A stretch of 21,735 nt of DNA from a virus: positions 1 to 21,735 of the IMG/VR virus record IMGVR_UViG_3300008450_000532. One strand, given 5' to 3'. The position numbers and the translations under genes were made by a program. The notes beneath the pieces are model-generated. The model searched no databases and was not told the origin of the DNA. It worked only from the letters and a program-made list of their open reading frames with translations. This document shows, one piece after another, positions 13,824 through 15,385 of the stretch. The stretch's first letter is position 1. Each line of letters opens with the position of its first letter.

Positions 13824-13987
13824 GATTTGCTCCAAAATAAAATGATTCCGGCTACGATCACAATGAAGAAGATCGCATACGTTGGCCAGACTGGCTCTTT
13901 ACCATATGGCCCACTGATGGGGTCACTGTTGCAGTTAAACGCTTCTTCCATAGTGCGTGGGAAGCGCTTTGTTGTATCATTTTCCAT
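13820..13987 (-). CDS. 55-residue single-pass membrane protein, first gene of the replication operon
   Basis: AGGAGG lies four to five bases before the ATG at 13987, directly downstream of a near-consensus promoter. The N-terminal part KRFPRTMEEAFNCNSDPISGPYGKEP is of a type common in small phage proteins. Residues 33-51 (TYAIFFIVIVAGIILFW) form one membrane helix near the C-terminus. Function unknown. Confidence 0.8.
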   Translation of the reverse strand: MENDTTKRFPRTMEEAFNCNSDPISGPYGKEPVWPTYAIFFIVIVAGIILFWSKS

Positions 13988-14005
13988 ATTACCTCCTGTG
14001 TTAAG

Positions 14006-14035
14006 AATATAACTCATGAATTGTTCATGTGTCAA
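14006..14035 (-). promoter_or_regulatory. Strong promoter of the leftward replication operon with an inverted repeat in its spacer
   Basis: On the minus strand TTGACA (14030-14035) and TATATT (14006-14011) are 18 bases apart, ending about 18 bases before the first ribosome site. The spacer contains CATGAA-TTG-TTCATG (14014-14028), a perfect inverted repeat. CATGAATTGTT is also present in the rightward promoter at 15405-15434, which suggests shared control by a repressor or activator. Confidence 0.8.
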
Positions 14036-14378
14036 CTGTTATGTTACAACCGAAAAGCCCTCTTACCCGTTGACCCTCCCTCCCCCAGACAGGCGGACAG
14101 AAGGACCAACGACTCATTATCAAGGAGCTTTGCCCAGTTGTTAAGTGAGCTACCGGCCAGCCAAGCCGCCCTCCCCTGAGATCCCGATAAGGTCAGTTTG
14201 CACCATCCTTAACGATCAACTCCCAGCGTACTAGGGTATGTGTCTGTTACGACATCCTTGTTTATTCCGTTCGATTGCTCTACTTGGAGGTGCGGGTCAC
14301 ACCGAGGTTCTGTGTTTCTTGAGTTCAGCCCATACAGGCCATTAGCTAACGCGCTCTGACGGCTACGTTGCAAGAGAA
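14036..14378. other. Noncoding region, left part, with weak secondary structure
   Basis: No convincing gene. A 68-codon TTG frame on the minus strand (14209-14415) lacks a ribosome site. Short inverted repeats are present, for example TAAGG (14188-14192) with CCTTA (14207-14211), GGTG with CACC around 14290, and the palindrome TTAGCTAA near 14342. On the minus strand, about 14090-14160 recalls part of a tRNA but does not fold as one. This stretch may be the variable half of the structured RNA to its right, or may hold an origin; neither can be shown. Confidence 0.4.
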
Positions 14379-14441
14379 GAGACTGGGACTGCTCACATGT
14401 AGCAGTGTTTTTCAAAACATTTCGTCCACTTTAAGGAGCTT

Positions 14442-14456
14442 GCGGCGCTAACCCGC
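14442..14456 (+). repeat. Hairpin repeat, copy 1
   Basis: GCGGCGCTAACCCGC, identical to the copy at 14707-14721. It forms the hairpin TTGCGG-CGCTAAC-CCGCAA (14440-14458), so both the loop and the top of the stem are repeated. Confidence 0.75.
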
Positions 14457-14706
14457 AACACAATCCCAGTCTCAAAACAAAAAGGCCACTTAAGGCTACA
14501 TTCCGGTTGCGACCTTGCCTAATGACTCTCCGACCGAAAGCATTAGGTAAAGCGGAATATAGCCATAAGTGGCCTCAAGCTGTCACTCGCAACAGTAACA
14601 ACCCGTTTATATCAGATTATTTCAACTGATGTCAACAAGTTTCAAAATAAAGTTGGTGGGCACATAAAGCAGTGTTTGTGTAAAAACCAAACCAAGAAAA
14701 CCACAA

Positions 14707-14721
14707 GCGGCGCTAACCCGC
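14707..14721 (+). repeat. Hairpin repeat, copy 2
   Basis: Same 15 bases as at 14442-14456, here within CAAGCGG-CGCTAAC-CCGCTTG (14704-14724), a perfect 7-base-pair stem with the same 7-base loop. The outer stem bases differ from copy 1 but still pair, which suggests the structure matters. Confidence 0.75.
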
Positions 14722-14820
14722 TTGCCACCAACACGACTGAGGACTGAAGCCAGCGGCATCTGGAGATTGCATAGGCTGAAACTCTGCAACCTTTATTCGA
14801 CAATCCCCATGCGTGTTAGC

Positions 14821-14839
14821 TCTATAACAATGTTATAGA
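14821..14839. promoter_or_regulatory. Perfect 19-base palindrome, operator-like
   Basis: TCTATAACA-A-TGTTATAGA: 9-base arms around one base. It is nearly the same as the palindrome before the LexA-type gene (4726-4743). It lies between the structured RNA candidate and the terminator of the RuvC-like gene. It could control a promoter for the RNA on the minus strand, but I cannot place one with confidence. Confidence 0.6.
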
Positions 14840-14841
14840 TG

Positions 14842-14871
14842 AAAAAACTCCCGAGTGATTAGCCCGGGAGT
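14842..14871 (-). terminator. Rho-independent terminator after the RuvC-like gene
   Basis: On the minus strand ACTCCCG (14865-14871) pairs with CGGGAGT (14847-14853) across an 11-base loop and is followed by a T6 tract (14842-14847). It lies 55 bases after the resolvase stop and separates that gene from the noncoding region. Confidence 0.85.
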
Positions 14872-14926
14872 AAAGGACAACCCAACAAAGGAGAGGCAAC
14901 TGCATGTTACCGGAATTAATTCTACA

Positions 14927-15385
14927 TCATTCTCCGTAAAGTGCAATGAATGCCGCATCTGAATACGCTTGACCTACGCCTTTTTTATCCAGCTCACGCC
15001 AGCTTGGCCACATCTGGATGGCCTTTGTCCTCGAGGCATCCTTGTCCTGACCCACTAACCCCGCGCGCTTCTTCCATTGACTGGGTGTTACCATCGTTAC
15101 AGGGATCTCAAACGCGCCCAGTACACCTTGGATAACACCAGCAGAATGTCCAAACGAGAACATCGAAGCCACGCCTTGGCCGGGCATACTACCTACCAGC
15201 TCGACATAGGCTTTGATCTCTTCCCCATAAATTGATGGCCGAATAATCGCAGCCAACGCTGGCGCATTCACACGATTAGCCGAGCCCGTCTTCATTGTCG
15301 GCATCCGATACCACGCAACAGGCGTATCCCCATCCATGATGACTATGGCGCCAGATAATCCGGGGTCTATTCCAATCTTAATCAT
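14927..15385 (-). CDS. RuvC-like Holliday junction resolvase
   Basis: A 152-residue RNase H-fold endonuclease. MIKIGIDPGLSGA carries the first catalytic Asp (D7). YVELVGSMPGQGVASMFSFG gives E62 and the conserved MPGQG...SFG segment, and QAYSDAAFIALYG gives a C-terminal acid (D143). The family cuts four-way junctions or branched DNA, here probably to trim replicated concatemers before packaging or to finish ERF-driven recombination. It is a single gene with its own promoter and terminator, divergent from the recombination operon. The ribosome site is weak. Confidence 0.93.
   Translation of the reverse strand: MIKIGIDPGLSGAIVIMDGDTPVAWYRMPTMKTGSANRVNAPALAAIIRPSIYGEEIKAYVELVGSMPGQGVASMFSFGHSAGVIQGVLGAFEIPVTMVTPSQWKKRAGLVGQDKDASRTKAIQMWPSWRELDKKGVGQAYSDAAFIALYGE

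Follow-up and report, generated by a model that had tools for sequence, protein, structure and literature searches.

A conserved, structured minus-strand RNA candidate in phages, with a shared 5' module and differing downstream cores

The gap between the RuvC gene (14927-15385, minus strand) and the next leftward gene of IMG/VR virus record IMGVR_UViG_3300008450_000532 very probably encodes a conserved structured RNA, read from the minus strand, of a class absent from Rfam. The stretch analyzed, here called the window, covers positions 1 to 21,735 of that record (21,735 nt in total). No convincing genes were present in the gap, and parts of the locus recur, differently combined, in hundreds of other phage sequences in IMG/VR. 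Few large structured phage RNAs are known; by kind alone ("large ornate phage RNA") the locus is one more of them, and it adds a widespread class with strong comparative support. The sequence class had no counterpart in the Rfam scans, and an architecture of a constant module and exchangeable cores was not found in the accessible portions of the openly licensed literature. The whole reading, a trans-acting phage RNA built from a constant 5' module and exchangeable 3' cores, has in our estimate about an even chance of being right, judged from sequence comparison. The parts of the locus, listed leftward, were as follows.

14821-14839, minus strand: palindrome TCTATAACA.TGTTATAGA behind the RuvC terminator; its letters vary and the palindrome is kept in the relatives aligned
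14730-14817, minus strand: motif B, a ACGCAUGGGGAUUG...CAGUCCUCAGUCGUGUU stem that adjoins module A in other phages too
14652-14732, minus strand: module A copy 1 (A1), with P1 GTTGGTGG/CCACCAAC; covariance-model match 14651-14733
About 14705-14723, minus strand: P2 hairpin of A1, GCGG-GUUAGCG-CCGC
14661-14674, minus strand: P4 of A1, CACUGCUUUAUGUG
14643-14651, minus strand: U-rich, terminator-like tract right behind A1 (UUUUUUUU in several relatives)
14606-14635, minus strand: sigma-70-like promoter TTGACA-18-TATAAA, predicted start about 14599; kept in several aligned relatives
14582-14599, minus strand: hairpin D at the predicted 5' end; its loop GUUGCGA (14593-14587) pairs with 14512-14506 within T
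14483-14576, minus strand: element T, a long interrupted hairpin; R2 model match 14480-14605
14473-14484, minus strand: U run UUUUUGUUUU behind T, intrinsic-terminator-like
14379-14473, minus strand: module A copy 2 (A2), with P1 of up to 14 bp, P2, and P4 at 14394-14407; covariance-model match 14384-14468
14058-14362, minus strand: conserved core of type III, CCGUCAGAGCGCGUUAGC..., with covarying hairpins at 14289-14303, 14154-14168, and 14132-14150
14007-14035, minus strand: next promoter, TTGACA-17-TTATAT, of the leftward operon (gene from 13987); largely kept in the relatives aligned

Alignment of the window with 11 relatives gave the order RuvC terminator, palindrome, motif B, A1, promoter, D, T with its U run, A2, core, and next promoter, and some of the 11 relatives lacked individual parts. 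The window's own matches to the covariance models R1 and R2 hold by construction, the window being a row in both. One relative (L014) lacks 14426-14643, a segment that contains the promoter, D, T, and half of A2 (its 5' half), and matched the window at 100% in both flanks; either the core stands there without these parts or the contig is misassembled. At another locus (L119, 3576-3960), a natural deletion fuses the core to the ribosome-binding site of the next gene and removes the second promoter.

An earlier note, made from the letters of the window, had placed a large structured RNA at 14379-14732. Its stems were all recovered: the 10-bp stem pairs 14379-14388 with 14464-14473 (arms extending to 13 nt at 92%), the 23-position helix has arms 14483-14508 and 14550-14575 (26 nt, 88% complementary), and the 8-bp stem joins 14652-14659 to 14725-14732 around a hairpin. 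Its impression of unusually dense folding was borne out over 14036-14842, which on each strand folded better than all 20 of its dinucleotide-shuffled versions (z, -6.03 for minus and -3.49 for plus), and ORFs of ≥50 aa inside that interval reached at most 68 aa, in agreement with its description of the region as gene free. The stems stand, whereas 14379-14732 as a single molecule does not: within this stretch an upstream element (A1) comes to its end, a promoter follows, and the RNA starts, with D, T, and A2 as its 5' portion. The 10-bp stem is P1 of A2 and the 8-bp stem is P1 of A1, two copies of one module, and the 23-position helix is the separate element T; the promoter at 14635-14606 between A1 and D had been missed, and the most conserved part (14058-14362) lies outside the interval proposed. 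The large structured RNA itself was upheld by compensatory changes in module A, D-T, and the core.

Module A was traced from a repeat, GCGGCGCTAACCCGC, that occurs twice in the window, 265 nt apart, and that retrieved at least 119 stretches from IMG/VR. In 77 of these 119 stretches, the minus-sense hairpin GCGGGUUAGCGCCGC was followed by CRCUGCUnnAUGYG, which is the whole module A pattern, and the stem enclosing both differed from locus to locus; the remaining loci were mostly chance matches of the 15-mer. The IMG/VR scans (with the repeat, the spaced module A pattern, and the T 3' arm) each gave at least about 120 loci, and the abundances are lower bounds. In all, 191 copies of module A were found in 177 loci, and 107 copies remained after dereplication. 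P2 pairs -1 to -4 were paired in 106, 101, 96, and 89 of the 107 copies, by pairs of several kinds; in the middle of P4, the pair was A-T in 90 and G-C in 17, with no mismatches. In an alignment of 32 rows, 97.7% of 576 cells were paired (shuffles, 65.6%) and covariation was 0.828, compared with 0.182 in shuffles and at most 0.196 in slid controls; the 32 rows are those of a 58-row alignment in which a single spacer base follows P4 (the window rows were cut anew), and since the 56 nonwindow rows of the 58 were picked for P1 of ≥7 pairs and for exact P2 and P4 seeds, P1 pairing and loop invariance are biased in that set. Fifteen distinct copies from loci not picked for module A, which are free of the seed bias but were aligned to the covariance model, were 95.9% paired, with covariation of 0.671 versus 0.177 and a P4 middle pair of A-U in 11, G-C in 2, C-G in 1, and U-A in 1. 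The covariance model detected further copies in loci not picked for module A and, on 37 whole records, one copy in 31 and two in 6. In a divergent copy (L333:7630-7709, minus), the P2 loop changed from AGC to GGC and the P4 loop from GCU to GCC together, a single compensatory hint of loop-loop pairing between P2 and P4.

The loop of hairpin D is complementary to a strand within T, and the paired sequences differ widely among loci (window, GUUGCGA/UCGCAAC; L067, GUCGGAG/CUCCGAC; L105, UCGUCGUGG/CCACGACGG; L187, CUGAGAAACC/GGUUUCUCAG). A perfect complement of ≥7 nt was present at all 122 sites found by the T 3' arm, compared with 17% when partners were swapped, some complements among the 122 being chance or hairpin-internal matches. 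A -10 box was recognized at 76 of the 122 sites (none at the other 46) and ended 11 to 13 nt before the D loop in 74 of the 76, a spacing that places D at the predicted 5' end. Over 33 aligned sites (32 of the 33 collected, with mislocated L233 dropped, plus the window), 90.8% of positions were paired and covariation was 0.304 versus 0.157; the pseudoknot is shifted by one in part of this alignment and was 69.3% paired there. Of 52 records searched with the R2 model, 24 had a D-T locus, never more than one; one of these records gave a second match, which lies over the first on the opposite strand. D-T was detected by R2 in 12 of 37 records bearing module A and in none of the other 25; among 15 records selected for a core or T, D-T was present in 12 and module A in 1. 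The T pattern applied to host genomes, which describes the common form of T and does not fit T of the window, had no match among 399 genomes of the order to which a Pseudorhodoferax genome belongs. Two other long hairpins with U runs occupied the place of T before the same kind of core, one with AACCCCGCAGG... or AACCCCATAG... and the other with AACCCATTGGTGAGC... (L214, L240, L249, L257, L261, and L265; L152, L163, L263, L300, and L302). With other hairpins in that position, the 5' module seems to be exchangeable as well.

A search with the pattern of the window core returned 91 stretches, 29 of them distinct. Cores of types I and II form a compact domain of two hairpins, an ACCAG/CUGGU hairpin, and a long variable hairpin. 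The first two hairpins vary by compensatory change (GGG/CCC to CCG/CGG; GUC/GAC to GCC/GGC or ACC/GGU), and the loop of the ACCAG/CUGGU hairpin pairs with a strand further 3' to form a pseudoknot, in which 6 of 6 pairs were changed on both sides and 100% were paired, none being broken. Across 25 rows of these types (24 of the 25 collected, with divergent L101 dropped, plus L240), 97.0% of 669 cells were paired and covariation was 0.646 versus 0.185. The window core, type III (24 distinct loci), keeps the first hairpins of types I and II, which account for most of its likeness to them, and adds covarying hairpins of its own. One of these, GGYGUGACCCGCRCC, has C-G in 10 and U-A in 14 of the 24 loci; another alternates between CGGC/GCCG and CGGA/UCCG; a third appears as GCUCA/UGGGC, GUCCA/UGGAC, GUCAA/UUGAC, and GUUGA/UCAAC, the last two read by eye. 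Compensatory change among related loci, for which the earlier note had proposed a test, was strong in both module A and the core. Of 26 loci with cores of types I to III that could be evaluated, 24 had a stem with a U run within 260 nt upstream of the core; another 3 loci were truncated. Two candidate interactions were set aside: a pseudoknot GUUAAG/CUUAAC in the window core is not claimed, being lost in L066, and a kissing interaction through a palindromic loop of core hairpin 2 was rejected because UGCAUG varies to UGUAUG and UGAAUG and the palindrome is not kept. Some core motifs may resemble RNase P or 23S rRNA, and no claim is built upon this presumed likeness.

Behind T, or behind A2, other loci carried dissimilar cores. 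The U run began 14 to 38 nt before the core at 67 sites and 96 to 125 nt before it at 18 sites, the longer spacing matching an inserted module A. Clustering of 122 regions downstream of D-T gave groups of 83, 14, 12, 5, and 3 and five singletons; the group of 83 is chained and mixes types, and the number of core types is not fixed by the clustering. Of 44 records selected for T or a core, the window among them, 3 carried Betaproteobacteria-1 RNA (RF02932) in the core slot, and the other 41, again counting the window, had no match. These matches lay right behind D-T (L141:3442-3558, minus; L313:356-474; and 29720-29837 in the record of L367), each starting 16 to 20 nt behind the T motif. RF02932, reportedly one of 224 candidate RNAs in a survey of 2017, is one alternative core of this locus type; it differs from the locus described here in that its family model spans 120 positions and D-T at the same loci lies outside the match. 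At one locus (L339), a weak tRNA match (33.6 bits) stood about 50 nt behind T, where ARAGORN called none.

The strand was assigned from noncanonical pairs. GU cells outnumbered AC cells in module A (36:4), the core (39:3), and D-T (78:10), and the RNA strand is therefore minus in the window, in agreement with the slight argument for minus that the earlier note had drawn from a C-A mismatch that becomes G-U. A 68-aa ORF that looks spurious lies over the core (window 14209-14415, minus) and weakly matched phrog_10570 in PHROG, a family of unknown function (E value, 0.0013). A protein gene was rejected: in 16 of 24 related loci, the longest frame through the window core ended no more than 44 nt from a fixed anchor, and in the other 8 it continued for 71 to 110 nt. 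The core match in MW202484 (33624-33798) bears the annotation "hypothetical protein"; this annotation and the ORF in the window may be miscalled RNA. The next ORFs downstream of D-T fell into 62 families over 104 sites (largest family, 15), at a median distance of 350 nt from T. This diversity of flanking genes favors a free-standing trans-acting RNA over the leader of one gene.

The window had no Rfam match by cmscan at gathering score, which accords with the earlier suggestion of a possibly new class. The covariance search against Rfam that had been suggested along with it was run over 13980-14960 and, at E values up to 10, yielded nine matches, all far under their thresholds, the best being mir-4796 on the T hairpin (E value, 0.091; 22 of the 90 bits needed). 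Among 57 distinct related loci, only RF02932 (L141) and tRNA (L339 and L102) were matched at gathering score. GOLLD had no match at E values of ≤10 in 13980-14960 or in L240 1-2000 and none at gathering score in the 57 loci, and the ROOL covariance model had none in the window, 13980-14960, L240, or the 57 loci. ARAGORN called no tRNA or tmRNA in the window. Against cultured and other deposited phages, the gap had no DNA match and a query with L029 had none, and a query with L240 had one (MW202484, from a spring metagenome; 82.6% over the core part of the L240 query). A query with the neighborhood gave five matches, four restricted to the RuvC region and a fifth in the same region without annotation. 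No description of this locus was found in the accessible parts of the openly licensed literature on phage structured RNAs, metagenomic noncoding RNA, and put-type RNA.

Under the preferred reading, a noncoding RNA of roughly 540 nt would be transcribed leftward from the promoter at 14635-14606. From about 14599, this RNA would comprise the pseudoknotted D-T with its U run, then A2, and then the structured core. D-T would set the 5' end and work as a partial terminator or a stabilizing cap, with two predicted products, a short one of about 125 nt that holds D-T and, by read-through, the full RNA. The U run just before the core might stop most RNA polymerase, and expression of the core might be slight or bound to certain conditions. 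The core would be the working domain and would bind a target. D-T is constant and the core type varies from phage to phage, so that a changing partner, such as a host factor or defense, probably dictates which core is used. Action in trans is somewhat more likely than not from the sequence context; the exchangeable-core mechanism is put forward more tentatively, the chances being somewhat against it. Also somewhat short of even is the chance of a cassette system in which a constant pseudoknotted 5' module would express any of several unrelated structured cores, Betaproteobacteria-1 RNA among them, as trans-acting effectors, plausibly directed at fast-changing host factors such as defense or translation factors. 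If true, such a system would be the RNA counterpart of swappable protein effector cassettes. The predicted 5' boundary, the compensatory pairs of its separable modules, and the context gained for the orphan Rfam candidate RF02932 make expression, deletion, core-swap, and structure tests of the locus possible.

Other readings account for part of these observations. Module A and D-T could be cis-acting leaders that control transcription in the manner of HK022 put or other processive antiterminators, with T as an attenuator and A or D modifying polymerase to pass terminators. This is unlikely on balance, and several features suit it: D stands at the predicted start, T ends in a U run, and same-strand ORFs flank D-T on both sides at 71 of 104 sites, which leaves room for a cis leader role of D-T. 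As for module A alone, 99 copies had a clear P1; a -10-like hexamer fell in the 16 nt preceding P1 in 36 of them (7 of 99 in a control window 300 nt upstream), a start codon followed P4 by 19 to 54 nt in 41 of the 99, and a tRNA stood within 20 nt behind the module in 4 of 25 loci scanned (L007, L023, L102, and L158), a context that suits a cis role. HK022 put is likewise a short phage RNA near a promoter start; in the accessible text of PMC9378689, put RNA is about 70 nt long and cis-acting, with putL just downstream of its promoter, and consists of two stem-loops without an enclosing P1 or a described core. Module A, in contrast, is a closed three-helix module with an enclosing P1, A2 in the window stands behind T rather than before it, and an antiterminator by itself leaves the conserved cores of several hundred nucleotides, and their exchange, unexplained.

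An RNA like GOLLD or ROOL, assembling into a homo-oligomer or cage with A and the core giving intermolecular contacts, is a somewhat less likely reading still. Size, phage setting, pseudoknots, and conserved loops are alike, and the tRNAs behind module A and the weak tRNA match behind T recall the tRNA links of those families. According to the accessible text of PMC12286853, both are phage RNAs of still open function that often lie near tRNA islands; GOLLD is large, ornate, and pseudoknotted, with one constant and one variable end and, in some linkers, tRNAs, and ROOL is about 600 nt long with multiple pseudoknots. The earlier note had pointed to these families, and the setting of a large phage RNA holds; no covariance match to either was found in the scans made. 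The conserved end is 3' in GOLLD, while the part shared here is the 5' D-T and the cores differ, and the one part-palindromic loop examined, UGCAUG, varies. A site that acts as DNA, for instance an origin of replication or a packaging site with inverted repeats that only resemble RNA, would fit one D-T locus per D-T-bearing record and strong conservation without a gene; it is very improbable given that paired positions hold far more GU than AC, a bias that DNA hairpins would not favor, and that the spacing from promoter to D is nearly fixed while stem sequences change freely. Chance foldback with ordinary terminators, or a missed small gene, would draw on the terminator-like T and U run and on the weak PHROG match of the 68-aa ORF. 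It has next to no probability and is refuted by covariation far beyond shuffles and slid controls, and the ORF frame is cut early in most of the related loci.

By a crude ORF call, 86 of 107 module A sites lay between ORFs and 20 overlapped an ORF on either strand, and both flanking ORFs were on the strand of the module at 52 of the 107. Another structured motif that recurs is motif B (ACGCAUGGGGAUUG...CAGUCCCCAGYCG), which stands on either side of module A in several loci; module A seemingly is nested inside it in L136, L161, and L179. The module A pattern also occurred in 12 loci among 84,980 species genomes, 11 of which, all except that of Roseovarius, were confirmed by the covariance model. 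The 12 bacterial genome or metagenome-assembled genome loci (L221-L232) included Comamonas, Pseudorhodoferax, Curvibacter, Achromobacter, Bordetella, Variovorax, and others; these loci are perhaps prophages.
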